From Hydractinia symbiolongicarpus (lineage: Eukaryota; Cnidaria; Hydrozoa; Anthoathecata; Hydractiniidae), in NCBI RefSeq assembly GCF_029227915.1, contig NC_079879.1, positions 10,726,001 through 10,790,000 of the forward strand: 64,000 bases of DNA, written 5' to 3'. The translations under genes and the position numbers were made by a program. Below the pieces are notes generated by a model. That model had not been told where the DNA came from, did no database searches, and was given only the letters and a program-made list of their open reading frames with translations. Below, one piece after another: positions 9,771 to 60,376 of the stretch; position 1 is the first letter of the stretch, and every line of letters begins with the position of its first letter.

Positions 9771-9858
9771 ATGACTGTGGCAAACAGATTAGCCGTTTGG
9801 TGGTTTTTTCTTGTCGTTCTCTTTGTTGTTGATGTGGAACTTCAGCAGAGTAATAACG
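9771..9858 (+). CDS. exon 1: signal peptide
   Basis: The exon starts at ATG 9771, ten codons inside a longer frame that has no upstream ATG. It encodes a basic N-region followed by the hydrophobic core AVWWFFLVVLFVV, then a polar stretch ending near QQSNN. The donor is AACG|GTAGGA in phase 1, matching the next exon. This is a classical secretion signal, with cleavage probably near residues 23-26. Upstream non-coding exons are possible. Confidence 0.7.
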
Positions 9859-12800: not shown

Positions 12801-15800
12801 ATCCCAAGTATTATTTTCAATGTATGTTCAATTTTTCAATGGTTCAATGTAACCGGTGAGATTATACAAAACAAAGATTTTGGATCATTATAGATATGTT
12901 GGGTATGGAAAAGGGGTGTTAAAAAGTATTACTTGCAGGATAGGTTTACAGTTTGGAGTTTTAGAGAGTTACTTCCTTTGTTGACTAGCTTAGTATTGTT
13001 GATTAAGGTGCAAGATAGGTTGTATAAGACTTGCATTAGAAGTGCTATATGTACGGTAGTGAGCCATGGGCGGTAAAGCAGAAAAATCTTGACCATTTAG
13101 AGAAGAAGTGATACAAAAATGGTTCGGTGTGTTATTCATGTACTGTAAAACCCATTAATTTTTTGACATATAGTGTAAAGTCTTAGCTTGCACTGTGGTT
13201 TAATGTATTGCACCTGACGTGTACATACATATCACCAGTATACCTTTACAGAATATTGAAAATACATTATATTATTTGTCTATTTTGTTTCAGGACAAGA
13301 TGATACAAAACACAACACCACCTCTGATGTCGTTTTTATTATTGACTCTTCCACAAACGTGGCTCAAAACTATGATATCATCAAACAGTTCATAATAAAT
13401 ATTATATCCAGGTTTACTTTGTCAAAACAACAAACAAGACTTGGATTAATATCAGCAGGGCAGTCTGCTAACACAGTTTTTACATTGTCAGATGAATATA
13501 ATGTTCCGAAATACACTGCTAAAATTAGGAATATGCCTCTTAAAGTCGATTCACACGCAGAACTGGAACCGGCGTTGAAAAAAGCTTATGAAATGATGTC
13601 TGATTCTCAAGCTGGTGCCCGATCTGGCGTGCCAAAAGTATTAATCATTTTGACGGCATCATTTAACAATGAAACTGGCAAAGAAATGGATTACGTCAGG
13701 AAGTTACAACAGTTAGGTAGTTTCATTTTTCTAAATTACATTCATAAAAAGCATGAGTCGGAAAGTTTGCCTAAACTTTGTGAGAGAAACTTTGTGAACC
13801 AAACAAATTGATAGGGTAAATTTTTACAATCGAATTTTTAAATTTTTTTTAAAATTTGAGATGTTGTTGTCACTATGAAACGTTCCCATTTGGTGGGAAC
13901 TAATTTTTTTAAAAGAAATGTTATAATTTAGGTAGTGTGTAATAATTCTGTGAAAAGTTAATGCTGTTTTGATTACACGTCAAGACTATATATTAACAAA
14001 CTAATTTATCCCCTTTTGTCACAAATCCCAAAGTATCAGCAACTTTTTGGCATGTTATGTATATTAGGAGTTAGATATTTTTGAAAACGAAATGTAATTC
14101 CTCAAAATGTTAATGCCTGGGTATGAAGGGATATATTACCATTTGATAATCAACATTATGATGTTTTCTTTGAGGAAGATCAACTCAAAACATGATTCCA
14201 AAAAAATTTGCTTAGAAGATTGCCAGTTGTATAAAATACTATTTAACGTCAACATCTTATTGCCGATGGTCAGTATTAGAGGCAAGATTTCTGGTCTTTT
14301 TTGGGGTATTGCTGTGTCATAATTTGTATGATATATTTCCTAAATAAAGAAGTTATATATATGTTGGTGAGTCTTTCCTCGTGTTTTGTTCAACTGAGAT
14401 AATCAATTTTTTATAGGCACGTCTTTAATATCAATTGGCACTGGATCTTCAATAAACCCAATTTTGCTTTTCCAATTGCCAAGAAACCCAAGTAACTCAA
14501 TATTAATTGAAGATTTTAACAAATTGACGGATAGAGAACAGTCGGAAAATGTTGTGAAAAGGATTTTAAAAGCATCAGGTAATGCAAATTTATCTCTTTA
14601 ATAAAAGAAATCCGCTTGTGGAAAAACAATAATCATATAAAGTTTGTGTAGTCCTTATGTTATTGTGTGAATTGAAAAGCTATCCCACTAATGAAACAGC
14701 TTGGAAAGTTGAAAAGAAATCTTTTTTTTTAGGAAAATCTTGATTGAATCTTAAGATTTTTTACTTACACGTTTTGCTAGTTGTGCCGACAAAACATTAA
14801 GATGAGGTTTTATATAGAAGGCATCGTGCTTTGCATATAGCTAAAATTTATGATATCTCAAGAATTAATAAGGATTTTCCAAAAAAAAAAAGATTCCTAG
14901 AATTAGTTGTGAAGTGGAAATTAATCTTTCACATCTTTATTATGTTATATGACCACAGTTTCATTTTTGGCAACAATTTGGTTTAAATTTTTTTCCCTTT
15001 ATCGTAAGGGTGCAAGTTTTCGCAGAGAGAAAATTTTGCGGATTTCACGGATTTGGCCTTATTCGGCAAAATTATTAACCCACAAAAATTATTTAAAAAC
15101 TTCATCCGCGAAATTAAATACCCGCGAAATTTTTATTGTTATTTTTTTAAATGTTTCTCTAGGATTTTTGTGTAGAAATTTAAATGGGGAGATAAAGAAG
15201 ACGATTTTGATTTCTGCAGAAATGCTTTTGCATGTTTTGATGATAAAGTGAAACAAAATATAACTTAAAAAAACCTAATTTACCCGCTTTCTTTCTTTTC
15301 TTTTTTCTTTTCAATTTATTTAAAGTCGATTATTCACATATTTACAATAGTTTCCAAAAAAAAAGTAATTAAGAAAACTAATCTAAATCGACTAAATTTT
15401 TTTTATGTTTACAATTAAATAAAATCATTTTTTTTATATATATAAACAATAATAACAGCAAAGTTCTATAAAGGGACCTTACATTCATCACAGTTACATT
15501 TAGATCCGTCCCACATTTTAATCATGCTTTTAAAAACTTTAAGGTTGTCACATCGTTTCAAATGTGATGAAATTAAATACCCGCGAAATTAAATACCCGC
15601 GGAAATTGTCGAGAATCTCGATCCGCGAAATTGAATACCCGCGAATTATATTATTTTGCCTATCCGCAAAATTAAATACCTGCGAAATTTGTACCTTTAA
15701 GGTATTATGATTTTGAGCTATTTTTTAAGAAGGTGTGCAATTGCAATTAAATAATGACATTTTTTTCTTTCAAACTGAAAAATTATATTGGAAATAAAAA

Positions 15801-18800
15801 GCAGTTTAATCTTTGTTTCGTGGCAGTCAGGTGCAACCTGGATGTTAAAAAAATTTTCATGGCCGATAAATACCCGCTATATATATGTTGTTCCTCGGTA
15901 TTATGTCTTTAAGAAAAGATAGATTCACATATTTTTCACCCATCTAATTTTTCTGAAAATTGTATTATTATTTTCAAATGTTTTAGAGTTTAGATGTTTT
16001 AGTGAAGTTGATGTTGGCTTTATACTTGATTCATCGGGTAGTCTTCGCAATTCGTATGACAAAGAGAAAGAACTTTTAAAGAGGATAGCTGGAACTTTTG
16101 TTATTGGTCAAAATCAAGCAAGAATGTCTGTTGTAACATTTAGCTACCATGCATCCCTTTCTATTAAATTTTCTGATTATGATGGTGAGACTGACTTCTT
16201 TCAAGCAGTAGACAACATACCCTTAATGGGATATACAACAAGAATTGATAAGGCATTAGAAATGGCAAAGGATAGCATGTTTAATGAAAAAAATGGAGCT
16301 CGTGTAGGTGTACCAAAGATATTAATTCTTTTAACTGATGGTTCCCAGTCCCCTTCATCCGATGCAACAGATCCAGCTGTCCTTGCTAAAAAAATCCGAA
16401 ATACTGGAATAAACCTCTTAGCTATTGGAATTGGAAAAGGTATTAACCAAACTGAATTGGAACACATTGTTGGATCTTCGCAGAGTACCTTTCAAGCTGC
16501 CTCTTTTGATGAAATAACCACGTCGAATTTTATAACCAAGGTGGCAAGTGGAAGTTGCCGGAAAGGTAAGAGAAAGTTAACATAAAATTGCCGTAAATAA
16601 AATTGATTTGACTTTCACATTTGTCGAAACTCGCCCTTACTGGATCTACTTTAGCAACCAAAGCCTAGGAGCCTAGTAGAATGCGTAACTACAACTCTAA
16701 TGCCACTTAGAAATATTAGGATTGTTATAGCTTTTCCCTTTACACATGTATACTCTTAGCAATTTCTACGTTTGTATACTTTCTTTCCAAAAAAAATCAA
16801 CAAAATTTATCCACTGCTTATATTCTCATAGAATAACATTACAAACACATTTCCATTAACAGGTTGTCTGAAACGGGCAGTTCTCCAAGGCGAGTACACT
16901 TACTACGGCCTGTTCCGCTCAGGCTAAAAACATTACACGGATCTGTGTTCTCCACAATTTATGTGCAACAGCAGCCAGACAAGTTCTATTACTCCTTTCA
17001 TATATTCCTTCAAATGTTAAGTGAGACAACGACAATCCTTGTCCAAAAAATATTCGCTTCGGTGATTTTAAACGCAGCCTGTGGACACGTCGATTTTGCT
17101 CATTTTTCTTCTTTCCATTTTAGCTAAGGAACCACCTAAACCGAGCTGTGAAGCTGTCGTGGACGTCGGTTTCATACTCGACTCTTCTGGTAGCCTTAGA
17201 AACGAGTATGGGAAGGAGAAGAACTTCTTAAAGAGTATGGCGACCACGTTTGGAATAAGCGAAAACGGATCCAGGGCTGGCGTGGTGACATTCAGTTACT
17301 ACACCGAGCATAGCATCAAGCTGAGCGATTACACAGATTTAGCCCGGTTCAATGAAGCCGTTGATCGCATCCCGTTAATGGGCAGAACAACAAGGATCGA
17401 CAAGGCCCTTCGTGTCGCACAAAAGGACCTGTTCAGCATAAGCAATGGTGGCAGGCCAGGCGTTCCCAAAATCCTGATCCTCTTGACAGATGGTTCACAG
17501 ACTCCAGACGCTGACGCTGAAGAGCCGGGAGATATCGCTGACGAACTCAGGAAACAGGGAATTACCATCCTTGTAGTCGGCATTGGCAGTGGAGTTAACT
17601 CCACGGAGTTGGCGCACATTGCCGGAAAAACAGACAACGTGTTTAGCGCTGCCTCCTTCGATCAACTGGTAGGCAATGAGTTCGTGGACAAAATCAAAGA
17701 GGGAGGCTGTGCAGCAGGTGAGTTTTTTAATCGGACTACGTGCAAGCGCAGCCAAACGCACTCTGTTCTCTCGGAAGGTCTTTCTCACTGTCGACTTTGG
17801 ACGTAGCGTGTAGACACGTCGAGTTTGCTGACTGTGCTTCTTTCCATTTTAGCTAAGGAACCACCTAAACCGAGCTGTGAAGCTGTCGTGGACGTCGGTT
17901 TCATACTCGACTCTTCTGGTAGCCTTAGAAACGAGTATGGGAAGGAGAAGAACTTCTTAAAGAGTATGGCGACCACGTTTGGAATAAGCGAAAACGGATC
18001 CAGGGCTGGCGTGGTGACATTCAGTTACTACACCGAGCATAGCATCAAGCTGAGCGATTACACAGATTTAGCCCGGTTCAATGAAGCCGTTGATCGCATC
18101 CCGTTAATGGGCAGAACAACAAGGATCGACAAGGCCCTTCGTGTCGCACAAAAGGACCTGTTCAGCATAAGCAATGGTGGCAGGCCAGGCGTTCCCAAAA
18201 TCCTGATCCTCTTGACAGATGGTTCACAGACTCCAGACGCTGACGCTGAAGAGCCGGGAGATATCGCTGACGAACTCAGGAAACAGGGAATTACCATCCT
18301 TGTAGTCGGCATTGGCAGTGGAGTTAACTCCACGGAGTTGGCGCACATTGCCGGAAAAACAGACAACGTGTTTAGCGCTGCCTCCTTCGATCAACTGGTA
18401 GGCAATGAGTTCGTGGACAAAATCAAAGAGGGAGGCTGTGCAGCAGGTGAGTTTTTTAATCGGACTACGTGCAAGCGCAGCCAAACGCACTCTGTTCTCT
18501 CGGAAGGTCTTTCTCACTGTCGACTTTGGACGTAGCGTGTAGACACGTCGAGTTTGCTGACTGTGCTTCTTTCCATTTTAGCTAAGGAACCACCTAAACC
18601 GAGCTGTGAAGCTGTCGTGGACGTCGGTTTCATACTCGACTCTTCTGGTAGCCTTAGAAACGAGTATGGGAAGGAGAAGAACTTCTTAAAGAGTATGGCG
18701 ACCACGTTTGGAATAAGCGAAAACGGATCCAGGGCTGGCGTGGTGACATTCAGTTACTACACCGAGCATAGCATCAAGCTGAGCGATTACACAGATTTAG

Positions 18801-21800
18801 CCCGGTTCAATGAAGCCGTTGATCGCATCCCGTTAATGGGCAGAACAACAAGGATCGACAAGGCCCTTCGTGTCGCACAAAAGGACCTGTTCAGCATAAG
18901 CAATGGTGGCAGGCCAGGCGTTCCCAAAATCCTGATCCTCTTGACAGATGGTTCACAGACTCCAGACGCTGACGCTGAAGAGCCGGGAGATATCGCTGAC
19001 GAACTCAGGAAACAGGGAATTACCATCCTTGTAGTCGGCATTGGCAGTGGAGTTAACTCCACGGAGTTGGCGCACATTGCCGGAAAAACAGACAACGTGT
19101 TTAGCGCTGCCTCCTTCGATCAACTGGTAGGCAATGAGTTCGTGGACAAAATCAAAGAGGGAGGCTGTGCAGCAGGTGAGTTTTTTAATCGGACTACGTG
19201 CAAGCGCAGCCAAACGCACTCTGTTCTCTCGGAAGGTCTTTCTCACTGTCGACTTTGGACGTAGCGTGTAGACACGTCGAGTTTGCTGACTGTGCTTCTT
19301 TCCATTTTAGCTAAGGAACCACCTAAACCGAGCTGTGAAGCTGTCGTGGACGTCGGTTTCATACTCGACTCTTCTGGTAGCCTTAGAAACGAGTATGGGA
19401 AGGAGAAGAACTTCTTAAAGAGTATGGCGACCACGTTTGGAATAAGCGAAAACGGATCCAGGGCTGGCGTGGTGACATCCAGTTACTACACCGAGCATAG
19501 CATCAAGCTGAGCGATTACACAGATTTAGCCCGGTTCAATGAAGCCGTTGATCGCATCCCGTTAATGGGCAGAACAACAAGGATCGACAAGGCCCTTCGT
19601 GTCGCACAAAAGGACCTGTTCAGCATAAGCAATGGTGGCAGGCCAGGCGTTCCCAAAATCCTGATCCTCTTGACAGATGGTTCACAGACTCCAGACGCTG
19701 ACGCTGAAGAGCCGGGAGATATCGCTGACGAACTCAGGAAACAGGGAATTACCATCCTTGTAGTCGGCATTGGCAGTGGAGTTAACTCCACGGAGTTGGC
19801 GCACATTGCCGGAAAAACAGACAACGTGTTTAGCGCTGCCTCCTTCGATCAACTGGTAGGCAATGAGTTCGTGGACAAAATCAAAGAGGGAGGCTGTGCA
19901 GCAGGTGAGTTTTTTAATCGGACTACGTGCAAGCGCAGCCAAACGCACTCTGTTCTCTCGGAAGGTCTTTCTCACTGTCGACTTTGGACGTAGCGTGTAG
20001 ACACGTCGAGTTTGCTGACTGTGCTTCTTTCCATTTTAGCTAAGGAACCACCTAAACCGAGCTGTGAAGCTGTCGTGGACGTCGGTTTCATACTCGACTC
20101 TTCTGGTAGCCTTAGAAACGAGTATGGGAAGGAGAAGAACTTCTTAAAGAGTATGGCGACCACGTTTGGAATAAGCGAAAACGGATCCAGGGCTGGCGTG
20201 GTGACATTCAGTTACTACACCGAGCATAGCATCAAGCTGAGCGATTACACAGATTTAGCCCGGTTCAATGAAGCCGTTGATCGCATCCCGTTAATGGGCA
20301 GAACAACAAGGATCGACAAGGCCCTTCGTGTCGCACAAAAGGACCTGTTCAGCATAAGCAATGGTGGCAGGCCAGGCGTTCCCAAAATCCTGATCCTCTT
20401 GACAGATGGTTCACAGACTCCAGACGCTGACGCTGAAGAGCCGGGAGATATCGCTGACGAACTCAGGAAACAGGGAATTACCATCCTTGTAGTCGGCATT
20501 GGCAGTGGAGTTAACTCCACGGAGTTGGCGCACATTGCCGGAAAAACAGACAACGTGTTTAGCGCTGCCTCCTTCGATCAACTGGTAGGCAATGAGTTCG
20601 TGGACAAAATCAAAGAGGGAGGCTGTGCAGCAGGTGAGTTTTTTAATCGGACTACGTGCAAGCGCAGCCAAACGCACTCTGTTCTCTCGGAAGGTCTTTC
20701 TCACTGTCGACTTTGGACGTAGCGTGTAGACACGTCGAGTTTGCTGACTGTGCTTCTTTCCATTTTAGCTAAGGAACCACCTAAACCGAGCTGTGAAGCT
20801 GTCGTGGACGTCGGTTTCATACTCGACTCTTCTGGTAGCCTTAGAAACGAGTATGGGAAGGAGAAGAACTTCTTAAAGAGTATGGCGACCACGTTTGGAA
20901 TAAGCGAAAACGGATCCAGGGCTGGCGTGGTGACATACAGTTACTACACCGAGCATAGCATCAAGCTGAGCGATTACACAGATTTAGCCCGGTTCAATGA
21001 AGCCGTTGATCGCATCCCGTTAATGGGCAGAACAACAAGGATCGACAAGGCCCTTCGTGTCGCACAAAAGGACCTGTTCAGCATAAGCAATGGTGGCAGG
21101 CCAGGCGTTCCCAAAATCCTGATCCTCTTGACAGATGGTTCACAGACTCCAGACGCTGACGCTGAAGAGCCGGGAGATATCGCTGACGAACTCAGGAAAC
21201 AGGGAATTACCATCCTTGTAGTCGGCATTGGCAGTGGAGTTAACTCCACGGAGTTGGCGCACATTGCCGGAAAAACAGACAACGTGTTTAGCGCTGCCTC
21301 CTTCGATCAACTGGTAGGCAATGAGTTCGTAAACAAAATCAAAGAGGGAGGCTGTGCAGCAGGTGAGTTTTTTAATCGGACTACGTGCAAGCGCAGCCAA
21401 ACGCACTCTGTTCTCTCGGAAGGTCTTTCTCACTGTCGACTTTGGACGTAGCGTGTAGACACGTCGAGTTTGCTGACTGTGCTTCTTTCCATTTTAGCTA
21501 AGGAACCACCTAAACCGAGCTGTGAAGCTGTCGTGGACGTCGGTTTCATACTCGACTCTTCTGGTAGCCTTAGAAACGAGTATGGGAAGGAGAAGAACTT
21601 CTTAAAGAGTATGGCGACCACGTTTGGAATAAGCGAAAACGGATCCAGGGCTGGCGTGGTGACATTCAGTTACTACACCGAGCATAGCATCAAGCTGAGC
21701 GATTACACAGATTTAGCCCGGTTCAATGAAGCCGTTGATCGCATCCCGTTAATGGGCAGAACAACAAGGATCGACAAGGCCCTTCGTGTCGCACAAAAGG

Positions 21801-24800
21801 ACCTGTTCAGCATAAGCAATGGTGGCAGGCCAGGCGTTCCCAAAATCCTGATCCTCTTGACAGATGGTTCACAGACTCCAGACGCTGACGCTGAAGAGCC
21901 GGGAGATATCGCTGACGAACTCAGGAAACAGGGAATTACCATCCTTGTAGTCGGCATTGGCAGTGGAGTTAACTCCACGGAGTTGGCGCACATTGCCGGA
22001 AAAACAGACAACGTGTTTAGCGCTGCCTCCTTCGATCAACTGGTAGGCAATGAGTTCGTGGACAAAATCAAAGAGGGAGGCTGTGCAGCAGGTGAGTTTT
22101 TTAATCGGACTACGTGCAAGCGCAGCCAAACGCACTCTGTTCTCTCGGAAGGTCTTTCTCACTGTCGACTTTGGACGTAGCGTGTAGACACGTCGAGTTT
22201 GCTGACTGTGCTTCTTTCCATTTTAGCTAAGGAACCACCTAAACCGAGCTGTGAAGCTGTCGTGGACGTCGGTTTCATACTCGACTCTTCTGGTAGCCTT
22301 AGAAACGAGTATGGGAAGGAGAAGAACTTCTTAAAGAGTATGGCGACCACGTTTGGAATAAGCGAAAACGGATCCAGGGCTGGCGTGGTGACATTCAGTT
22401 ACTACACCGAGCATAGCATCAAGCTGAGCGATTACACAGATTTAGCCCGGTTCAATGAAGCCGTTGATCGCATCCCGTTAATGGGCAGAACAACAAGGAT
22501 CGACAAGGCCCTTCGTGTCGCACAAAAGGACCTGTTCAGCATAAGCAATGGTGGCAGGCCAGGAGTTCCCAAAATCCTGATCCTCTTGACAGATGGTTCA
22601 CAGACTCCAGACGCTGACGCTGAAGAGCCGGGAGATATCGCTGACGAACTCAGGAAACAGGGAATTACCATCCTTGTAGTCGGCATTGGCAGTGGAGTTA
22701 ACTCCACGGAGTTGGCGCACATTGCCGGAAAAACAGACAACGTGTTTAGCGCTGCCTCCTTCGATCAACTGGTAGGCAATGAGTTCGTGGACAAAATCAA
22801 AGAGGGAGGCTGTGCAGCAGGTGAGTTTTTTAATCGGACTACGTGCAAGCGCAGCCAAACGCACTCTGTTCTCTCGGAAGGTCTTTCTCACTGTCGACTT
22901 TGGACGTAGCGTGTAGACACGTCGAGTTTGCTGACTGTGCTTCTTTCCATTTTAGCTAAGGAACCACCTAAACCGAGCTGTGAAGCTGTCGTGGACGTCG
23001 GTTTCATACTCGACTCTTCTGGTAGCCTTAGAAACGAGTATGGGAAGGAGAAGAACTTCTTAAAGAGTATGGCGACCACGTTTGGAATAAGCGAAAACGG
23101 ATCCAGGGCTGGCGTGGTGACATTCAGTTACTACACCGAGCATAGCATCAAGCTGAGCGATTACACAGATTTAGCCCGGTTCAATGAAGCCGTTGATCGC
23201 ATCCCGTTAATGGGCAGAACAACAAGGATCGACAAGGCCCTTCGTGTCGCACAAAAGGACCTGTTCAGCATAAGCAATGGTGGCAGGCCAGGCGTTCCCA
23301 AAATCCTGATCCTCTTGACAGATGGTTCACAGACTCCAGACGCTGACGCTGAAGAGCCGGGAGATATCGCTGACGAACTCAGGAAACAGGGAATTACCAT
23401 CCTTGTAGTCGGCATTGGCAGTGGAGTTAACTCCACGGAGTTGGCGCACATTGCCGGAAAAACAGACAACGTGTTTAGCGCTGCCTCCTTCGATCAACTG
23501 GTAGGCAATGAGTTCGTGGACAAAATCAAAGAGGGAGGCTGTGCAGCAGGTGAGTTTTTTAATCGGACTACGTGCAAGCGCAGCCAAACGCACTCTGTTC
23601 TCTCGGAAGGTCTTTCTCACTGTCGACTTTGGACGTAGCGTGTAGACACGTCGAGTTTGCTGACTGTGCTTCTTTCCATTTTAGCTAAGGAACCACCTAA
23701 ACCGAGCTGTGAAGCTGTCGTGGACGTCGGTTTCATACTCGACTCTTCTGGTAGCCTTAGAAACGAGTATGGGAAGGAGAAGAACTTCTTAAAGAGTATG
23801 GCGACCACGTTTGGAATAAGCGAAAACGGATCCAGGGCTGGCGTGGTGACATTCAGTTACTACACCGAGCATAGCATCAAGCTGAGCGATTACACAGATT
23901 TAGCCCGGTTCAATGAAGCCGTTGATCGCATCCCGTTAATGGGCAGAACAACAAGGATCGACAAGGCCCTTCGTGTCGCACAAAAGGACCTGTTCAGCAT
24001 AAGCAATGGTGGCAGGCCAGGCGTTCCCAAAATCCTGATCCTCTTGACAGATGGTTCACAGACTCCAGACGCTGACGCTGAAGAGCCGGGAGATATCGCT
24101 GACGAACTCAGGAAACAGGGAATTACCATCCTTGTAGTTGGCATTGGCAGTGGAGTTAACTCCACGGAGTTGGCGCACATTGCCGGAAAAACAGACAACG
24201 TGTTTAGCGCTGCCTCCTTCGATCAACTGGTAGGCAATGAGTTTGTGGACAAAATCAAAGAGGGAGGCTGTGCAGCAGGTGAGTTTTTTAATCGGACTAC
24301 GTGCAAGCGCAGCTAAACGCACTCTGTTCTCTCGGAAGGTCTTTCTCACTGTCGACTTTGGACGTAGCGTGTAGACACGTCGAGTTTGCTGACTGTGCTT
24401 CTTTCCATTTTAGCTAAGGAACCACCTAAACCGAGCTGTGAAGCTGTCGTGGACGTCGGTTTCATACTCGACTCTTCTGGTAGCCTTAGAAACGAGTATG
24501 GGAAGGAGAAGAACTTCTTAAAGAGTATGGCGACCACGTTTGGAATAAGCGAAAACGGATCCAGGGCTGGCGTGGTGACATTCAGTTACTACACCGAGCA
24601 TAGCATCAAGCTGAGCGATTACACAGATTTAGCCCGGTTCAATGAAGCCGTTGATCGCATCCCGTTAATGGGCAGAACAACAAGGATCGACAAGGCCCTT
24701 CGTGTCGCACAAAAGGACCTGTTCAGCATAAGCAATGGTGGCAGGCCAGGCGTTCCCAAAATCCTGATCCTCTTGACAGATGGTTCACAGACTCCAGACG

Positions 24801-27800
24801 CTGACGCTGAAGAGCCGGGAGATATCGCTGACGAACTCAGGAAACAGGGAATTACCATCCTTGTAGTTGGCATTGGCAGTGGAGTTAACTCCACGGAGTT
24901 GGCGCACATTGCCGGAAAAACAGACAACGTGTTTAGCGCTGCCTCCTTCGATCAACTGGTAGGCAATGAGTTCGTGGACAAAATCAAAGAGGGAGGCTGT
25001 GCAGCAGGTGAGTTTTTTAATCGGACTACGTGCAAGCGCAGCTAAACGCACTCTGTTCTCTCGGAAGGTCTTTCTCACTGTCGACTTTGGACGTAGCGTG
25101 TAGACACGTCGAGTTTGCTGACTGTGCTTCTTTCCATTTTAGCTAAGGAACCACCTAAACCGAGCTGTGAAGCTGTCGTGGACGTCGGTTTCATACTCGA
25201 CTCTTCTGGTAGCCTTAGAAACGAGTATGGGAAGGAGAAGAACTTCTTAAAGAGTATGGCGACCACGTTTGGAATAAGCGAAAACGGATCCAGGGCTGGC
25301 GTGGTGACATTCAGTTACTACACCGAGCATAGCATCAAGCTGAGCGATTACACAGATTTAGCCCGGTTCAATGAAGCCGTTGATCGCATCCCGTTAATGG
25401 GCAGAACAACAAGGATCGACAAGGCCCTTCGTGTCGCACAAAAGGACCTGTTCAGCATAAGCAATGGTGGCAGGCCAGGCGTTCCCAAAATCCTGATCCT
25501 CTTGACAGATGGTTCACAGACTCCAGACGCTGACGCTGAAGAGCCGGGAGATATCGCTGACGAACTCAGGAAACAGGGAATTACCATCCTTGTAGTCGGC
25601 ATTGGCAGTGGAGTTAACTCCACGGAGTTGGCGCACATTGCCGGAAAAACAGACAACGTGTTTAGCGCTGCCTCCTTCGATCAACTGGTAGGCAATGAGT
25701 TCGTGGACAAAATCAAAGAGGGAGGCTGTGCAGCAGGTGAGTTTTTTAATCGGACTACGTGCAAGCGCAGCCAAACGCACTCTGTTCTCTCGGAAGGTCT
25801 TTCTCACTGTCGACTTTGGACGTAGCGTGTAGACACGTCGAGTTTGCTGACTGTGCTTCTTTCCATTTTAGCTAAGGAACCACCTAAACCGAGCTGTGAA
25901 GCTGTCGTGGACGTCGGTTTCATACTCGACTCTTCTGGTAGCCTTAGAAACGAGTATGGGAAGGAGAAGAACTTCTTAAAGAGTATGGCGACCACGTTTG
26001 GAATAAGCGAAAACGGATCCAGGGCTGGCGTGGTGACATTCAGTTACTACACCGAGCATAGCATCAAGCTGAGCGATTACACAGATTTAGCCCGGTTCAA
26101 TGAAGCCGTTGATCGCATCCCGTTAATGGGCAGAACAACAAGGATCGACAAGGCCCTTCGTGTCGCACAAAAGGACCTGTTCAGCATAAGCAATGGTGGC
26201 AGGCCAGGCGTTCCCAAAATCCTGATCCTCTTGACAGATGGTTCACAGACTCCAGACGCTGACGCTGAAGAGCCGGGAGATATCGCTGACGAACTCAGGA
26301 AACAGGGAATTACCATCCTTGTAGTCGGCATTGGCAGTGGAGTTAACTCCACGGAGTTGGCGCACATTGCCGGAAAAACAGACAACGTGTTTAGCGCTGC
26401 CTCCTTCGATCAACTGGTAGGCAATGAGTTCGTGGACAAAATCAAAGAGGGAGGCTGTGCAGCAGGTGAGTTTTTTAATCGGACTACGTGCAAGCGCAGC
26501 TAAACGCACTCTGTTCTCTCGGAAGGTCTTTCTCACTGTCGACTTTGGACGTAGCGTGTAGACACGTCGAGTTTGCTGACTGTGCTTCTTTCCATTTTAG
26601 CTAAGGAACCACCTAAACCGAGCTGTGAAGCTGTCGTGGACGTCAGTTTCATACTCGACTCTTCTGGTAGCCTTAGAAACGAGTATGGGAAGGAGAAGAA
26701 CTTCTTAAAGAGTATGGCGACCACGTTTGGAATAAGCGAAAACGGATCCAGGGCTGGCGTGGTGACATTCAGTTACTACACCGAGCATAGCATCAAGCTG
26801 AGCGATTACACAGATTTAGCCCGGTTCAATGAAGCCGTTGATCGCATCCCGTTAATGGGCAGAACAACAAGAATCGACAAGGCCCTTCGTGTCGCACAAA
26901 AGGACCTGTTCAGCATAAGCAATGGTGGCAGGCCAGGCGTTCCCAAAATCCTGATCCTCTTGACAGATGGTTCACAGACTCCAGACGCTGACGCTGAAGA
27001 GCCGGGAGATATCGCTGACGAACTCAGGAAACAGGGAATTACCATCCTTGTAGTCGGCATTGGCAGTGGAGTTAACTCCACGGAGTTGGCGCACATTGCC
27101 GGAAAAACAGACAACGTGTTTAGCGCTGCCTCCTTCGATCAACTGGTAGGCAATGAGTTCGTGGACAAAATCAAAGAGGGAGGCTGTGCAGCAGGTGAGT
27201 TTTTTAATCGGACTACGTGCAAGCGCAGCCAAACGCACTCTGTTCTCTCGGAAGGTCTTTCTCACTGGCGACTTTGGACGTAGCGTGTAGACACGTCGAG
27301 TTTGCTGACTGTGCTTCTTTCCATTTTAGCTAAGGAACCACCTAAACCGAGCTGTGAAGCTGTCGTGGACGTCGGTTTCATACTCGACTCTTCTGGTAGC
27401 CTTAGAAACGAGTATGGGAAGGAGAAGAACTTCTTAAAGAGTATGGCGACCACGTTTGGAATAAGCGAAAACGGATCCAGGGCTGGCGTGGTGACATTCA
27501 GTTACTACACCGAGCATAGCATCAAGCTGAGCGATTACACAGATTTAGCCCGGTTCAATGAAGCCGTTGATCGCATCCCGTTAATGGGCAGAACAACAAG
27601 GATCGACAAGGCCCTTCGTGTCGCACAAAAGGACCTGTTCAGCATAAGCAATGGTGGCAGGCCAGGCGTTCCCAAAATCCTGATCCTCTTGACAGATGGT
27701 TCACAGACTCCAGACGCTGACGCTGAAGAGCCGGGAGATATCGCTGACGAACTCAGGAAACAGGGAATTACCATCCTTGTAGTCGGCATTGGCAGTGGAG

Positions 27801-30800
27801 TTAACTCCACGGAGTTGGCGCACATTGCCGGAAAAACAGACAACGTGTTTAGCGCTGCCTCCTTCGATCAACTGGTAGGCAATGAGTTCGTGGACAAAAT
27901 CAAAGAGGGAGGCTGTGCAGCAGGTGAGTTTTTTAATCGGACTACGTGCAAGCGCAGCCAAACGCACTCTGTTCTCTCGGAAGGTCTTTCTCACTGTCGA
28001 CTTTGGACGTAGCGTGTAGACACGTCGAGTTTGCTGACTGTGCTTCTTTCCATTTTAGCTAAGGAACCACCTAAACCGAGCTGTGAAGCTGTCGTGGACG
28101 TCGGTTTCATACTCGACTCTTCTGGTAGCCTTAGAAACGAGTATGGGAAGGAGAAGAACTTCTTAAAGAGTATGGCGACCACGTTTGGAATAAGCGAAAA
28201 CGGATCCAGGGCTGGCGTGGTGACATTCAGTTACTACACCGAGCATAGCATCAAGCTGAGCGATTACACAGATTTAGCCCGGTTCAATGAAGCCGTTGAT
28301 CGCATCCCGTTAATGGGCAGAACAACAAGGATCGACAAGGCCCTTCGTGTCGCACAAAAGGACCTGTTCAGCATAAGCAATGGTGGCAGGCCAGGCGTTC
28401 CCAAAATCCTGATCCTCTTGACAGATGGTTCACAGACTCCAGACGCTGACGCTGAAGAGCCGGGAGATATCGCTGACGAACTCAGGAAACAGGGAATTAC
28501 CATCCTTGTAGTCGGCATTGGCAGTGGAGTTAACTCCACGGAGTTGGCGCACATTGCCGGAAAAACAGACAACGTGTTTAGCGCTGCCTCCTTCGATCAA
28601 CTGGTAGGCAATGAGTTCGTGGACAAAATCAAAGAGGGAGGCTGTGCAGCAGGTGAGTTTTTTAATCGGACTACGTGCAAGCGCAGCCAAACGCACTCTG
28701 TTCTCTCGGAAGGTCTTTCTCACTGTCGACTTTGGACGTAGCGTGTAGACACGTCGAGTTTGCTGACTGTGCTTCTTTCCATTTTAGCTAAGGAACCACC
28801 TAAACCGAGCTGTGAAGCTGTCGTGGACGTCGGTTTCATACTCGACTCTTCTGGTAGCCTTAGAAACGAGTATGGGAAGGAGAAGAACTTCTTAAAGAGT
28901 ATGGCGACCACGTTTGGAATAAGCGAAAACGGATCCAGGGCTGGCGTGGTGACATTCAGTTACTACACCGAGCATAGCATCAAGCTGAGCGATTACACAG
29001 ATTTAGCCCGGTTCAATGAAGCCGTTGATCGCATCCCGTTAATGGGCAGAACAACAAGGATCGACAAGGCCCTTCGTGTCGCACAAAAGGACCTGTTCAG
29101 CATAAGCAATGGTGGCAGGCCAGGCGTTCCCAAAATCCTGATCCTCTTGACAGATGGTTCACAGACTCCAGACGCTGACGCTGAAGAGCCGGGAGATATC
29201 GCTGACGAACTCAGGAAACAGGGAATTACCATCCTTGTAGTCGGCATTGGCAGTGGAGTTAACTCCACGGAGTTGGCGCACATTGCCGGAAAAACAGACA
29301 ACGTGTTTAGCGCTGCCTCCTTCGATCAACTGGTAGGCAATGAGTTCGTGGACAAAATCAAAGAGGGAGGCTGTGCAGCAGGTGAGTTTTTTAATCGGAC
29401 TACGTGCAAGCGCAGCCAAACGCACTCTGTTCTCTCGGAAGGTCTTTCTCACTGTCGACTTTGGACGTAGCGTGTAGACACGTCGAGTTTGCTGACTGTG
29501 CTTCTTTCTATTTTAGCTAAGGAACCACCTAAACCGAGCTGTGAAGCTGTCGTGGACGTCGGTTTCATACTCGACTCTTCTGGTAGCCTTAGAAACGAGT
29601 ATGGGAAGGAGAAGAACTTCTTAAAGAGTATGGCGACCACGTTTGGAATAAGCGAAAACGGATCCAGGGCTGGCGTGGTGACATTCAGTTACTACACCGA
29701 GCATAGCATCAAGCTGAGCGATTACACAGATTTAGCCCGGTTCAATGAAGCCGTTGATCGCATCCCGTTAATGGGCAGAACAACAAGGATCGACAAGGCC
29801 CTTCGTGTCGCACAAAAGGACCTGTTCAGCATAAGCAATGGTGGCAGGCCAGGCGTTCCCAAAATCCTGATCCTCTTGACAGATGGTTCACAGACTCCAG
29901 ACGCTGACGCTGAAGAGCCGGGAGATATCGCTGACGAACTCAGGAAACAGGGAATTACCATCCTTGTAGTCGGCATTGGCAGTGGAGTTAACTCCACGGA
30001 GTTGGCGCACATTGCCGGAAAAACAGACAACGTGTTTAGCGCTGCCTCCTTCGATCAACTGGTAGGCAATGAGTTCGTGGACAAAATCAAAGAGGGAGGC
30101 TGTGCAGCAGGTGAGTTTTTTAATCGGACTACGTGCAAGAGGAAACAGAGAATAATTTAATTCTGTTTTATCTGTTTATGTTACTACTAGTCCCGTAGTA
30201 TTGTGTCTCACGACTGCGGTCACGATTTTGCGTGAGAGACAGACGTAAACGGGTATTATAATATAACAAGTCGTTTTCTCGTGGAAAATTCACGTGTTCG
30301 CCCATCATTTTAATTTACCTGTGGCAACAAAGTGGATAAAAATGTATTGCATTTGATATTCGAGTTTCCGTGGCACGTGTTTCTAAGTCAGGGGGTGGGG
30401 GTCTGCGCAGAGACAGACAAAAAACGGCTATTATTAAAGATATGTTTTTAATTTATTTAAAATTTGATATTTTAGCTTCTATTGTACCAACCACTGCAAT
30501 ACCTCTTTCTTTACGTAAGTATGCTACTGTTGTATTTTTGCACATATTTTGCAAAGTTGATTGTTTTGGTTTCAAAGGTTCGTATTGCAAAACACTTTTG
30601 TGTACCACTATCCAGCATATGTGTGCGAAAGACATTTCTATTACCAGTCACTAGAAGGTGATGATATTTTCACAGTCAGTGATTCGATACTAAAAATGAT
30701 TCTTATCCCTAGGTTCCTTTGCAAAAGGTAGAACAAATTACCTAATTTCGTAAATATTTCTTTTCGTTAAGTCCCTTAACTCCAACTGAAAGTTACGGTT

Positions 30801-33800
30801 AAACGCTCTAAATAGACGAGTTTCATAAGAATAATCTCGTTTTCAAAATATTATATTGCTCTAAAAACTTCATTTTTGTCATGATAATTTAATTTTCTAT
30901 GTGAATATCCTTATTTGAAGAGCAAAGAACCATTATGAAATTTTGGATGACGTCATAATTATTATATTTTATGAAAATCGGGAAAGGTCTATTACTATTT
31001 TTTGTATTTTATATATTATTGACATGTTTTATGCTTTTTTTTTAGCTCGATGCGACCTTTCAAACTTGGATGCAGTGTTTGCAGTGGATATGTCTATAAG
31101 TTCATTAAGCCATCATAATGATGAGAAGAGATTGCTGAAGGTTTTGACAGAATCTATCGCATCGTCTAGTCGATCCAATAATATAGCACTTGTTTCTTAC
31201 GGGGGTATTGCTCAAGTTTCAATTCAATTCCAAAATACATTCAACGCGACATTTTTCTCTGAAACAGTTGATAAAATTACTCCAATTGATAATGGTAGAA
31301 GATTAGACAATGCTATCATCAAAGCGTACGAGGATCTATTCAAACCGCGTTATTCTGGAACCCTGACTTATTTGAAGAAGAATAGTCTAAACAATATAGA
31401 TTCGTCTGTTTCCAACAACTTATTCAACTCATTAGGGCAGCCTTCAACATTTTCAAACAGTCAAATACCATTCGCAGGAAAAGATAAATTTAATCATGTG
31501 AAAAATAAATTATTTGTTGTGCTCATTGCTGGAAAACATCTCCAGAATGGTGGTGATGTATTACCAAGGGATGCTGCTCGATTACTGCACGATCTTGGCA
31601 TTCAAATTGTTGTTGTTGCATTTGATGAAACAAGCAAAGATGTAAGGGAGATAGTCTATAATAAAGGGGACGTTCACGAGTTTTATAAAAGCAACAACAT
31701 CAGTGATGTGTGGTTCGACATATGTCATAAATTTACAAAAAGTAAGAAGCATTTTATGGAATACTTTTTACGTTAATGGAAGTAATTATCGCGAATTTTG
31801 CGTGATTTTGTCAATTTCGCGTGAGTTAATTCCTCTGACAATTATTTAAAAAATCGCTATTCAAAATTTTTTTTTCTGTTTTTAATATAAACTCAAGTAA
31901 TATTTAATGTCTCTTGCAGGAAAGCCGTCCAAAAACGGTGTAGCTAAAAAAGGCTATATTTCTCGCAAAAATATCCTGGGAGAAATTTTTTGCGCAAAAA
32001 TTTGTTTTGGCAAAATTGATGCGGTGTGTTTATTAGACACATTTGCAGCGAAAACCCGAGCTGCATGTTTCTGTTTTTTATCTTTTTAGAAAAAGTGAGT
32101 TACACTTGCGAGGGACCTGTTGATGTCGCCTTCTTGCTGGATTCATCTGCGAGCATGTTTTATGATTATCAACTTCAATCTGAGTTTGTAGGCAAACTAG
32201 CAAAAAAGTTCAACATCTCGCCGGCAGGTGCTCACGCAACAATTTTGATCTACAGTCACACAGCTCAAATGAAAGGTACATTAAAAGATGGTGCCAATAT
32301 GACAGGACTTACTAAGGCGCTCCGAAATCTTCCCTTTTTAGGCGGGGACACCAGATTTGACCGCGGACTCTATTTATCACGTTTAGCCTTGTTTGACCCT
32401 AAATTTGGTGGTAGATCAAAAGTACCTAAGGTACTGTTTGTGGTAACAGATGGGCAACAGAGCAGTTTTGTTAGTGGCAGTTCTCCAGTTGATTTAGCAG
32501 AGGAGTTGCATGAGTTAGGTGTTCACGTCATTGTGTTAGCTGTCGGTGGAGCAGTAAATAAAAAAGAGGTACAAACTATGGCCTCGAGTGATGACAGTGT
32601 ATTTTTTGTCAAGAATTTTATCGAGCTTTCATCCGAAGAGACTATAAAGAAATTATGGAATCATTCCTGCTCAAATTTACGTAAGTTTAACCCTATTCGG
32701 TCCGGCGTTTTTCGAACATACTATGATCGGAATACTATGATATACTATGACCTATAATATATGATCTATATATGACCTATAATACTATAATACTATGACC
32801 AAACCCCCCCCCCCTCAATAACTTTTTAGGGTTGTTCAAATTGAATAAAACTTGGCACGCTTATAGTACATCACAAAAGGAACAAAATAGCAGCAATAAA
32901 TTTTTGCTTGCGTCAGCACATTTTCTGTGACGTCATCAGAAGCTTCAAATTTGTTAAAAATGCCACTATCTGCTTAAAATTTAATTGCTTTTGTTCCAGA
33001 GCGAATTTTTCCATTCTGTTTGAAGTTTCTGAAAGCTAAATAAAAGTTATTTCACATATTTTCCGATTTTTACGTGGAACGCATAAAAAATTGCCAAAAA
33101 TTGTCCAAAAATCCTGTTTTTTCAGATTTTCGGGTAAAATCCGACAAAGTCGGGAAATCGGGTTAATCACGTGTCCAAATTATGCAAAATGATTCTTCTT
33201 AATAAAGCAAGTTGTGTTGCAAGTTTCAAGTTCTAAGGATAATCCTAACAGAAGTTATTCAATTTTCCCCATTATAACGATTTCATAGAGATTTTTAGGG
33301 GTAGTTTCGAGTAATGGCCAATATCAAAGCCTCTGAACGGTTTTGGACCTAGACATTTGGCATGCATGTGTCTAATAGATAAATATTGAAACTCAGTAAG
33401 TTTCATAGCTATATAACATAGCAATAAGGAGTTATTAAAAAAAAACCGTCAGGGGTGGGGCGGAATCCTCCTTTATGTTTGTCTTTCATCTTCTAATTTT
33501 CCTTTACCCTCCTTTCTCTTTTACCTTTGCTTTTTCTCTTTCCACATCTTCTGCATGTTTTGGTTTGTTTCCTAGGAGCTAGTGAGCCGTTCACAAAAGG
33601 TTCTGGGGATATTGGAATAACGTTACCTGGAATAGATGGTAAGACATTTTAACTAATCACATTTCACCCGAGCTGACCTTTTTATCTGGTGTTTAATTAT
33701 GTGACGAAAAGCGTAATTTGAAAACTCTAGCAGAGTGCAATGTTTAAGCAGGTTGTGGTTTTATATTTTTAGATAATGTTATACCTGACAGCCTAAAAGT

Positions 33801-40295: not shown

Positions 40296-43200
40296 ATGAA
40301 GTACGTATTATTTGGTGCTTTCTTGCTGGTGAATCTGGGTACGTTAGAAAGTATTACTTGTGGTTTCGGAAAGGAATTTTGTAAACTTCAAACTTGTGTG
40401 AAAGATCTGAAATGTAAAGGTAAATATTTTTTCTAGACTGACACACATATACTTTTTAAATAATTCAACTGTGGACGAAATGTTTAATTCTGGACCTATT
40501 CAGGAATTATAAAGAACCAATCATTAGATATTAGGAGATTTAGCTAGTATAAAAACTATTTTTAAAGTTTGTAGCTCCTTGTGGATCGGTTGTTAAAAGG
40601 CAACAAACTTAAACTTCAGTAACACGAATATGAATAAGAAGATTTTTTATGCTTTTGATAAAGCATTGTCTTCATAACGTGCAATGATTAACATTACACT
40701 TTTTTCTGAAAAGAATACCGAAATTCTGATTAATTTGATCATAAGAACTATTGTTTTTAACCTGAAGTCTTCACTACATAACATAGTCTAACCCTATATT
40801 TTAATCGTATTATGACAGGGGTGGATGGAGGGGGGAGCTGATTTCGTCCCCTCTATAACTATCGATAAGCTTTTAAAATTGGATCAAACTTGGCACACTT
40901 ATACTACGGCATGAAAGGATCAAAGTAGTAGCAATATATTTTTGCTTACTTTTTCTGTGACGTCAAAGAAAGCCTAAAATATGTCCAAAATACCACTGTC
41001 TGAAATTCACTAATCGAAATTCAATTGCTTTAGCTTTAAAATAATTTTAACATTCTATTTAGAATTTCTGACAACCACATAAAATTTATTTATTATTCGA
41101 TTATTCCATAATTCAGATAAAAAATCTGCCTAAAATTGCCCGATAATCCGATTTCCCCCGATGTTTGGGTAAAATTCAAAAAATTTTGGAAATCGGATTA
41201 ATCACGTCTCCAAAGTTTACGTTTCAAGTTATAAGGATAATCCTAACGAAAATTAATATATCCCCTCCCCCTTATAGTCTTGCAGGTATGAATAGCTAAA
41301 AGCTAAGGTTTTGAGAGATATGGGACCTAAACATTTGGCATGCAGGTGTCTAATAGATAAATATAAAAGTTCAATAACCATCATAATTATGCAGCATTGT
41401 TGAAACCAAATTCCAGGCAAATTGGCATAGAATGTTTGCTAAAATAAAATGTACTTGGATCATGCTAAGTAAAAATCTTAAGAAATAAAGGCTGGCTAGG
41501 ATAGCACCTCCTATCAAACTGAATATACTTTAGGTAATTAAGTTTTAAATCTTGTCCAAATTACGTGGTGAATATTCCTTTATAAAGCGAAAAATATATG
41601 AAAAGTAAAACTTTATAAATAAAAAATGGGCAACCTAAAGTTTCAAAATGGTTATTGCTACAGCAGACCATCGTTCGCAAATATTTTAATATCAATGTTT
41701 TACATCCGGGTGATTCATATTGGAAATAGCGCACTTAAATAGTGCAGTTTTTTGGTTTAAAACCTCCGTTTTCATGTTGAATCAGCAAGAGAATTATAGG
41801 ACCTATTGCTACTCCAGTAAGACGTTGCAAATAGCCAAAAAACATGAATCGATATAAGACTAGTTATGCAACTCATCGTTGTAGCTAACCCTGGTGTGAC
41901 AACTAGCTACAACCTTGTTACACTGTGATACGCATTCCGCCATGTTTAACAGGAAGTGGTCTTGGCAGTCATATTGCAGACAAAACAGAGCTATTAATAC
42001 TTGTCGTTAACCCATAGAAAATTCCATTGACTAGTTATTATTATAGAGATGCATCTTGCGGTCACACAAGCAGATACGTGTATCACTATGGTTTCATTTT
42101 AAAACACTCATTGTTTTGATGAAAATATGCAACGTTTGAGTTTTAAAAATAACTTTGAAACTTAATATCTTCGAAATTTGAGAAAGCGAACGTAAATTCC
42201 CATGACTTGGCATAGCAGTGGATGTCAAATGTCAATTGCTATTCAAATTTTCACATAGTTTGTCTGCATTGAAAAAAAAAGTGATTTAGCCGGAATGACG
42301 CATAGAAGCAGATAGCAACCTCGTCTCCATCTTCTTTAAGGCTGTCACAAGTTTCATTTTATTTTGGATTATAAATTTCCCATATTCAAGGATTTAATGG
42401 CTGACTTTAGTTTGGAAATCTTCCTTTTTTCTTTTTCTTTGATTAAAATTCACAGAAAATTAAATCATGCTTAAAAATAAGTTTACAAACAGTAAGAAAT
42501 GATAATCTAACCGAAACTGGAAACTGTCGTTATTATAGAATATTGCAGTAGATATCAATTGGGGCCTGCAAATCCCAATATTTAGGGGCTTAAGAAGCCC
42601 TTACATTTCTTTAAAGAAAAATTGGAAAAAACTTGGATTCCTTTTTTTCTCATTTAGGAGGATAGTGTCATTCTTATATTATGTTGTAGGTTTTGAAATC
42701 ATTCTTTAAATTTATTCTTCTGAAATAAAATCTTTTTTTTTTCAGGAAATGTTGGAAGAACTTTTTGCGACTGTTGTGATGTTTGTTTAAAACAAGAAAA
42801 TGAGACATGTGGCGTAATAGAAGGAAAGTGTGATTATAAGGCGCCAATTTGTGCAAAACTACCAGGTACACACAAGAAATGCGTTACCATGAAAACAGGT
42901 AGGTCTAAATCAAACTCGTCACCAGGAATTGTGTTTTTGTCTCGTCGATATGGCTCCAAATATGGCTCCAATTAACATACAAAAATATAAATATCCCGTT
43001 AAATTGGTTGTGTGTTTTCCTTTCTAGTTCTTAAACATCGCATTCGATTATACATGAGAGAGATTCGAACAAGTTGTAAAAAATCAAAATCATACAAAGG
43101 TTACAATGTGGAAAAAATTTTCAAATGCTTTTTAAACTCGGTTGGATCACAATATTACTGCTTAAAGAAGCCAACATATAATCCAGATGAAAAAAGGTAT

Positions 43201-52009: not shown

Positions 52010-52345
52010 CGGGGAAGAAAGGGGCGTTTATTAAAGAAGGGCGTTAAAAAGAGAGGGGCGTTAATTTACCAAAAAAAGTTTTTGCAATGCTAAGTCAATA
52101 AAATGCTATTCGATTAGCATCTTAAACGTCCGAATCATTTGGCTCAAAAAATTAATAACAACAAACTTCATTTTTAATAAAAGTTATTTTTTTCTAATAA
52201 ACGCCCCTCTTTCATCACACTAGGGAGAAGGGGGCACTTAATAAGAAAGAAAGGCATTTTTATAATACTTTTATTTTTAGAGGAGGATTTAAATAGAGAG
52301 GGGCGTTTAAAAGAGAGGGGGCGTTTATTGGAGACAATATGCGGA
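52010..52345. repeat. GGGGCGTTTATT repeat element, copy 1
   Basis: Multiple GGGGCGTTTA/TAAACGCCCC motifs in both orientations (about 52021, 52055, 52198, 52300 and 52319). It shares this composition with the better-bounded element at 53736. Ends are not clear. Confidence 0.5.
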
Positions 52346-53735
52346 CTATTATAGTGAATTACTTTCATGACACAGCCAACTAATACCGGGGCAATGTAAA
52401 GAACTTAAGTAGCCCTGGAAACCTATCATGATCGTGTTTTTATACGGCATATTTTATGATTTGATTTTTTTAGAAAATTAATTTCAATTTCAATGTGAGT
52501 GAGTTCTTAAAAAAAACTAATCAGCCTTTTTTAATGAACCAAAATTAGCTCTGTCTCCTTAAAATAATCCAATTAAACTTGTTTTTTTGTTTGTTTTTGT
52601 TGGTGAAAAAAACTCGTAAAGATCGATATCTGTACTACACCCATCAACAGTGAAACATTAAAAACTTTGGTATTAACTGACCAAAGTCGAACGTCATTTG
52701 CTGTACATTAAAAAAGCTTAGAGTTTAAATTCAGTAGCGAACACATAGTTCGTTTTCGTTTTTGCTTTTTTGTGATAAAATCTCTTATTGAATCCTAAAA
52801 TTTGAAGAGCATAAACCTGCAGGAATAAAACTTCAAATATTTTGGATCGGTCACAACCATGGGGTCCCTATCTCTAAATGAGAACCTGTAGCTACGCCTC
52901 TGGGTAGAAATCAGCAGGAATTAAAAAGATTATGTCCAGCTTTTTTAAAAAAGTTTGAAGTAAGCTGTGCTATTCATGAATGCAAACAGATGTGTTTTAT
53001 GGAGACAAGGATAAATTTCACTAATTACATATTAGATCGATCAATATTTGTCTAATTAAGAAGTCTAAGTTGAAAGAGTACACTAATTACCTTTGAGTTA
53101 GTATGTTGCAATATGTGGTTCATAGATAAATGACAATGACATTTGATTTAAAATTGACCCAAAACTCTGAAATACATTGGGAAGGGTGTTGAACCTACCC
53201 GGAGACTTTCATTGTTAAAATGTTTGGTTAATATAAATATTATTAATATAAAGGATAGGATATTTGCGCCAAATTTTTTCTAATTTTTGTACTGTGTAAC
53301 TTTAACAGCGAAAAATGCCGCTATAAGAAAGGTTTAAGAACAACTCTAAGCTTAAAGAAAAAAAGATTCTCATTAATGCATGTAAAGCAAATTATAATCC
53401 ACTAAAAAATACCCTCTGAGGTAGAAGTTGGTCCAATTTAGGGTGCCAGTAAGGCGTTTTTAGGATTATCCACATCCAAGCTTTGTTTACCTAACATTGT
53501 TAATTCTCATAAACAAAACTTCTAGCGCAAATATAGCCTGCGTATGTAATAAATAAAGAGTGTGACTGCGCAACAAAGTTTCATAGCAACAACCGCTCTT
53601 AGAAATAACAGAGAAGTTGTGTACATCTTGAGTAATTATCAAGACTAACCATCTGCTATTATAGATTGACGTAGACTGACATTTGATCTGTCGAGAGTGA
53701 ATTTCAATTAAAACAGTGTTTTGCAGTCCTTTAAT

Positions 53736-60274: not shown

Positions 60275-60317
60275 ACGTTTTGTTTTGTTTTGTTTTGTTT
60301 TGTTTTGTTTTGTTTTG

Positions 60318-60376
<59 letters not shown>

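Follow-up and report, generated by a model that had tools for sequence, protein, structure and literature searches.

Eighteen nearly identical, GC-rich VWA exons in tandem within one predicted gene of the hydrozoan Hydractinia symbiolongicarpus

The KIV-2 repeat of LPA consists of whole exon-plus-intron units arranged in tandem inside one coding gene and can account for up to 70% of the protein. Its units are reported to be 5.6 kb long with two exons each, to number from 1 to ∼40 per allele, and to be of proven polymorphism (PMC11462820), and the flanking KIV-1 exon is reported to be identical to that of the repeat, with the first 200 intronic bases 70–100% alike (PMC11201333). We have analyzed an array of this kind in the hydrozoan Hydractinia symbiolongicarpus. 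It lies in a 64,000-nt stretch of contig NC_079879.1 (assembly GCF_029227915.1, positions 10,726,001 to 10,790,000 of the forward strand), which we refer to as the window and number from its first letter. Here too, exon–intron units are repeated in frame within one gene in the predicted model, but each unit is only 729 bp, contains one exon, encodes a VWA domain and is known from one allele. The array makes up 74% of the predicted protein.

Protocadherin variable exons are alternative first exons and are not joined together in one mRNA, unlike the exons of the array in the predicted gene model. In Fugu, these tandem exons are reported to exceed 99% identity over the converted part, with a sharp boundary, and the homogenized exons to have a G+C content at third codon positions (GC3) of 54–69% as against 38–45% (PMC1852091). 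The array bears the same signature, but homogenization in Fugu is confined to the 3′ part of the exons. The hnwd genes of Podospora likewise carry a variable number of highly conserved coding repeats subject to concerted evolution; their repeats are of the WD40 type, with diversity selection reported at some positions and exchange between loci (PMC2873952). The array differs in its 198-codon exon, in having 15 of 18 modules identical in protein sequence, and in that a second locus was not found in the assembly (480,894,487 bp in 76 contigs). Collagen VI alpha-3 and mussel PTMP1 of the extracellular matrix, where the array protein is also predicted to act, share with it the tandem arrangement of VWA modules, but their modules have diverged from one another whereas those of the array are nearly identical. 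The array gene also contains FAS1 domains, and no run of at least four Gly-X-Y triplets, as in the collagen VI triple helix, is present in its 4808-residue model. The kind is already known from LPA KIV-2, hnwd and the protocadherins, and the array is an extreme member of it, unusually clean in its degree of identity, short exact period, share of the protein and internal control. A literature search (titles and abstract openings, with subscription journals mostly outside its reach) returned no description of the array, which does not establish its absence from print, and the terms von Willebrand, VWA and fasciclin do not occur in the main texts of the Hydractinia cell atlas (PMC11876637) and genome paper (PMC11067881).

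A 33-nt exact anchor occurs 18 times in the window, and all 17 successive spacings are 729 bp. The 594-nt exons lie on the + strand at 17124 + 729k to 17717 + 729k (k = 0 to 17), from unit 1 (17124..17717) to unit 18 at the end of the array (29517..30110), and the exact periodicity, which takes in the 18 VWA exons and their complete introns, spans 17108..30139. Such letter-level periodicity over 13 kb is out of the question as a product of chance. Across the array there are 15 single-base departures from the consensus and no indels. These reduce to 12 distinct changes at 11 positions and include 632C>T, common to units 10, 11 and 13, and 457C>T, common to units 10 and 11, in a nested arrangement. 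The exon sequence is identical in 12 of the 18 units. Unit position 171, which falls in a strand of the predicted module structure, has been hit twice (window positions 19479 and 20937), giving Phe to Ser in unit 4 and Phe to Tyr in unit 6. Our counts agree with the initial annotation of this locus, which had described 18 copies of the exon in an exact 729-bp period ending at 30110, with about 15 departures in about 13 kb. It had also assigned a 135-bp intron to every copy; the complete internal introns number 17, not 18, because the intron 3′ of unit 18 has just its first 29 nt in common with the others. Tandem Repeats Finder did not report the array because the period exceeds the program maximum of 500.

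The introns are nearly as alike as the exons. Three of the 12 changes are intronic, compared with 2.2 expected from length (P = 0.47), and in this sense the earlier proposal that the introns are as conserved as the exons holds; it does not extend to the mean pairwise difference, which is 0.40–0.41% for introns (0.41% in the direct comparison) and 0.18% for exons. The full units (n = 17) differ among themselves by a mean of 0.23%. Protein-level purifying selection therefore cannot be the cause of the identity, as had been argued, and recent amplification or homogenization is needed.

The internal introns also appear to record how the array began. The first 29 nt of the internal intron (first copy 17718..17852, +; 135 nt, GC 0.48) are identical at 29 of 29 positions to the beginning of the intron that follows unit 18 (30111..30475, +), which forms the right edge of the array and past these 29 nt gives no alignment to the internal introns. 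Its last 60 nt match the end of the intron before unit 1 (16566..17123, +) at 49 of 60 positions (82%), and an alignment of the core of these tails, with the splice-site end excluded, scored 39, whereas none of 300 shuffles exceeded 24. This upstream intron is the left edge of the array, which is not homogenized. Judged from these two ends, the internal intron is a fusion whose 5′ part corresponds to the start of the downstream intron and whose 3′ part corresponds to the end of the upstream one, as would be left by a crossover between the introns on either side of one exon.

The differences among units point to a much younger event. Heterozygosity in H. symbiolongicarpus is reported as 1.33% (PMC11067881), and at 0.23% two units of one array are therefore more alike than two average alleles. 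Set beside the 82% identity at the junction, this difference indicates that the first duplication is much older than the present identity. Nine of 11 changes (counting GG>AA in unit 6 as one) are confined to a single unit, compared with a mean of 3.5 in 4000 runs of a neutral coalescent with 17 units, where at least nine singletons were reached in 0.8% (P = 0.008); a value analogous to Tajima's D comes to −1.96 for the 12 changes and −1.91 when 11 are counted. These star-like differences would fit a recent expansion of one unit sequence, or a sweep by it. As in concerted evolution, the identity takes in silent and intronic sites despite the greater age of the first duplication. The initial annotation had offered very recent amplification or continuous homogenization as alternatives. 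One or the other is indeed needed, but the choice can be refined: the junction and the GC enrichment described below point to an old duplication, and the pattern of differences to a recent, star-like spread of one unit sequence.

The array stands out from its surroundings in base composition. Its exons have a GC content of 0.505–0.510 and a GC3 of 0.55–0.56 (0.563), compared with a GC3 of 0.25–0.37 in the five exons that encode the remaining four VWA domains of the gene and 0.25–0.44 in the other exons of the gene model, save one 39-nt exon at 0.08. For 20 VWA exons elsewhere, on nine contigs, GC3 is 0.291 ± 0.047 with a maximum of 0.365; these were hand-chosen from 150 scored (of 283 candidates) as higher-ranking and longer, with second copies of duplicated clusters excluded. 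The enrichment extends to the introns of the array (GC 0.47–0.49), whereas the 13 other introns of the gene have a weighted mean of 0.31 and a maximum of 0.367. Among 3720 overlapping windows of 729 bp taken from 20 genome stretches, the highest GC is 0.486, short of 0.503. GC is thus raised in the array and not in the flanking sequence, at silent and intronic sites, as would be expected of GC-biased gene conversion. Higher GC has also been reported for primate X palindromes (PMC8981503).

Old and new changes appear to run in opposite directions. The closest relative of the module in the window is VWA2 (exon 4 of the gene model, 15987..16565, +; AT-rich, 55–56% protein identity). At 106 residues identical in the unit and VWA2, the third position is G or C in the unit only at 48 and in VWA2 only at nine (P = 1.5e-7), and the direction is the same in comparisons with all four of the other VWA domains, VWA2 giving the strongest. 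By contrast, nine of the 11 GC-changing differences among units are G/C to A/T and two are the reverse; the 9:2 AT-ward and 48:9 GC-ward ratios differ at P = 4e-5 (Fisher), or P = 3e-4 for silent changes only (5:0). Mutation toward AT together with a long-term shift toward GC is what GC-biased gene conversion would be expected to produce, and the bias required at equilibrium is modest, ranging in scaled units from ∼0.7 for introns to 1.1 for third positions. Two explanations based on CpG were considered and rejected. Deamination of CpG as the source of the new changes is not indicated, with three of eight G/C-to-A/T transitions at CpG compared with 24% expected (P = 0.30). As for low methylation as the cause of the high GC, the observed/expected CpG values (array exons 0.85–0.90, intron 1.28, genome sample 1.04) leave CpG alone insufficient.

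On this evidence we consider it likely that the array is an old, intron-containing coding tandem repeat whose units have been kept alike by conversion and unequal exchange, whose GC has been raised by biased conversion, and which has recently expanded. As the fusion intron suggests, a single exon of symmetrical phase 1-1, related to VWA2, would have been duplicated long ago when the intron downstream of it exchanged with the one upstream. The units would afterwards have been held alike by gene conversion and unequal exchange among them, which would account for the disagreement between the two clocks, and GC-biased conversion would have lifted the GC of exon and intron together, as composition and direction of change suggest. 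The star-like differences suggest that recent expansion or a sweep of one unit sequence then gave rise to the present 18 copies. Because 594 = 3 × 198 and the exon is of phase 1-1, any change in unit number would preserve the frame and the domain, and the array would be free to lengthen or shorten without breaking the protein.

Several results weigh against this interpretation. The 48:9 contrast is unpolarized by an outgroup and rests on the assumption that VWA2, with a GC3 typical for VWA exons in this genome, has retained the ancestral composition, while the corresponding contrast is not significant against VWA22 (17:11, P = 0.34) and weak against VWA1 (16:5, P = 0.027) and VWA21 (18:7, P = 0.043). 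In the homologous 60-nt intron tails, the last 57 nt differ 6:2 in the GC-ward direction, which is not distinguishable from the changes among units (P = 0.49). Satellite-like repeats are common in this genome: six of 20 stretches at preset positions self-match at 70–86% when shifted by 203 bp (L005, L011, L016, L019) or 373 bp (L017, L018), and with their GC of 0.35–0.38 repetition is therefore not always GC-raising in this species. The star-like pattern argues against a pure steady-state turnover, which would rarely produce it. Identity of the edge exon, tried as proof of conversion over unequal crossing-over, was too close to decide in simulations (40 runs per setting, comparing the first exon with a sampled internal one): without conversion the edge exon was identical in four (low rate) and nine (high rate) of 40 runs, and with conversion in 12 of 40 at both rates. 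The exonic changes comprise four replacement and five silent, a replacement shortfall (P 0.04–0.09) that is only suggestive of selection on single modules. Finally, the open frame of the short exons in the gene model is partly a product of how their borders were chosen.

The alternative that fares best is a single recent burst, in which one round of amplification turned a GC-rich exon into 18 copies, with no history of homogenization or biased conversion. The star-like differences (9/11 singletons) and the exact period without indels are what a burst would leave. However, the 3′ part of the fusion junction has diverged by 18% from the upstream intron, so that one duplication or more must long predate the present identity, and the GC enrichment of exon and intron is absent from the nearest exon, the rest of the gene model and the 20 other VWA exons. 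We regard this scenario as improbable.

We regard it as very unlikely that the array is an artefact in which the assembler inflated a locus with fewer units. The variant-bearing units do lie somewhat centrally, but at P = 0.09 we rejected this placing as a sign of mis-polishing. The differences are substitutions rather than homopolymer indels, which are the usual long-read error, and the nesting of 632C>T and 457C>T likewise argues against an artefact. A 30-nt piece of the internal intron, allowing up to three mismatches, has 17 matches in the assembly, all 17 inside the array; by this pattern there is no second copy of the array, haplotig included. At 13.0 kb, the array is close to the reported HiFi read N50 of 13.2 kb (PMC10411563). 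The longest exact repeat at multiples of the period, however, is only 2,195 bp, far under this N50; ordinary HiFi reads would place uniquely, and the array should therefore have been assemblable. Concern about the assembly is reduced by these observations, not removed.

Purifying or codon selection that keeps the exons identical and GC-rich, with which the replacement shortfall (4/9) is compatible, is hardly credible because it is already contradicted by introns that are likewise nearly identical and GC-rich, and the low GC3 of the other exons of the gene means that expression-linked codon choice is no explanation. Equally implausible is an origin of the module from a GC-rich foreign source or a distant gene: its best DNA-level match in the rest of the window has an E value of only 1.6 (a blastn search there for decayed unit copies returned nothing above two 13-nt matches at this value) and its composition is unlike the genome sample, but a search with VWA2 as query, the one direction covered genome-wide, finds the array exons best (56% identity; the next match elsewhere, among 150 scored of 283 candidates, is 40%), VWA2 is the best match of the module within the window, and frame and intron phase agree with the neighbors.

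The module itself is a VWA domain by several measures. The unit matches Pfam VWA (PF00092) with 123.9 bits (cut-off 23.8; E 1.1e-35), and an AlphaFold2 model built from a four-sequence alignment (pLDDT 81.7, pTM 0.84) has Rossmann-like alternating strands and helices. A PDB fold search with the module gave 423 matches at E ≤ 0.001, and the 50 listed are VWA or I domains or proteins containing one; at the top stand mussel byssus PTMP1, VWF A3, collagen VI and integrin I domains. Of these, PTMP1 fits best in fold (4cnb_A, E 1.6e-16, TM 0.86), and it also gives the highest-scoring single-domain sequence match of the alignments listed (81.6 bits). The stretches FILDSSGSL, TTRIDKAL and LLTDGSQ each occur 19 times in the predicted protein, in the 18 units and VWA2, and together they are what we take to be the MIDAS metal-ion site (DxSxS, Thr, Asp). 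All 18 array modules carry this motif intact, and metal binding is putative. The module has one cysteine close to each end, and terminal cysteines in other VWA domains are reported to make a closing disulfide (PMC3919171); by analogy, the array module may be closed in the same way. These domain, motif and fold matches uphold the initial annotation of a matrix-like protein with adhesion modules, as a predicted function. A tblastn search of the rest of the window with the module found VWA2, VWA22, VWA21 and one 43-residue match (E 0.97) only.

Elsewhere in the genome, two colinear clusters with dozens of VWA exons lie at ∼298–391 kb and ∼8,884–8,981 kb of one contig (G000:C4), offset by ∼8.59 Mb. 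Their modules are 20–30% identical to VWA2 and are diverged, unlike those of the array, and the pair represents either two copies of a very large VWA gene or cluster or a duplication introduced by the assembly. A further colinear pair of VWA-exon clusters is found at 30.906–30.918 Mb and 33.746–33.758 Mb of another (G000:C3), offset by ∼2.84 Mb.

The predicted gene that carries the array has 31 exons with AG/GT borders, chosen by eye so as to keep the frame, and runs from 9771 to 36765 on the + strand in a single frame of 4808 residues with the sole stop at its end. From the 3′ border of exon 1 up to the 5′ border of the exon at 33773, all borders are of phase 1; those further downstream differ. 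The model comprises a putative signal peptide, 22 VWA domains and two fasciclin domains; Pfam finds VWA in the array unit, the first VWA1 exon, VWA2, VWA21 and VWA22, and fasciclin in the last two exons. Exon 1 (9771..9858, +) is an open frame with the start codon, a hydrophobic N-terminus and a GT donor at its phase 1 end. The most hydrophobic 19-residue stretch of the protein is residues 7–25, the next one more than 25 residues away averaging 1.39, which suggests that residues 7–25 form a signal peptide and that the product is probably secreted. VWA1 is encoded by exons 2 and 3 (13294–13716 and 14417–14578; 13294..14578, +), with a first metal-site motif that is degenerate (DSSTN) and a Pfam E value of 4.3e-23 for the first of them. 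Downstream of the array, VWA21 (31046–31741) and VWA22 (32090–32680; together 31046..32680, +) are 24% and 32% identical to the array module, and the last two exons (35155–35465 and 36283–36765; 35155..36765, +) encode the two fasciclin (FAS1) domains and the stop codon.

Within the gene, the intron before unit 1 contains an acceptor-like site followed by a short open frame with a stop (16861–16940, by eye), possibly an exon that is terminal or skipped. A AATTAAATACCCGCG-like motif is repeated at 15100–15690 (by eye) in the intron that precedes VWA2, with a tandem part at 15569–15607 (Tandem Repeats Finder), and is possibly a dispersed repeat. Downstream of the gene, cysteine-rich open stretches at 42724–42972 (+) and 55401–55607 (−) give weak, below-cut-off Pfam matches to IGFBP; several degenerate 16–18 bp repeats of the GGGGGCGTTTAAAAGA type lie at 52015–54031, and a GTTTT pentanucleotide array of ∼78 copies at 60277–60665.

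The presence in one gene of 18 homogenized and several non-homogenized VWA exons, with both types of intron, makes the locus an internal control for GC-biased conversion and concerted evolution: expression, chromatin neighborhood and protein family are common to all of the exons, and conversion history alone differs. The locus also points to a large gene of matrix type that may be misrepresented in short-read or collapsed assemblies. Because the units are more alike than the average alleles of one animal, we expect the array to be polymorphic in copy number, a possibility already raised in the initial annotation. Since the 18 exons are symmetrical and their splice sites almost identical, skipping of exons could generate further length variation in the RNA. 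Both the mechanism and copy-number variation are directly testable in the host, for which a HiFi assembly from a named clone is reported (PMC10411563), and which has a sister species reported to have split from it ∼14 or 19 million years ago (PMC13119343, PMC11067881).

From its domain content, the product would string together 22 VWA beads, of which 18 are interchangeable and have an intact metal-site motif, and would provide multivalent, length-adjustable binding in an extracellular matrix or adhesive. It is conceivable, though we hold it only tentatively, that conversion and unequal exchange are fast enough for alleles within one population to differ in bead number. With similar reserve we suggest that the module count may act as a heritable length dial, differing between colonies and tuning the strength of matrix or attachment, and that the same process built the GC island within a single transcript. 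If true, the array would constitute a within-gene demonstration of GC-biased conversion in a hydrozoan.

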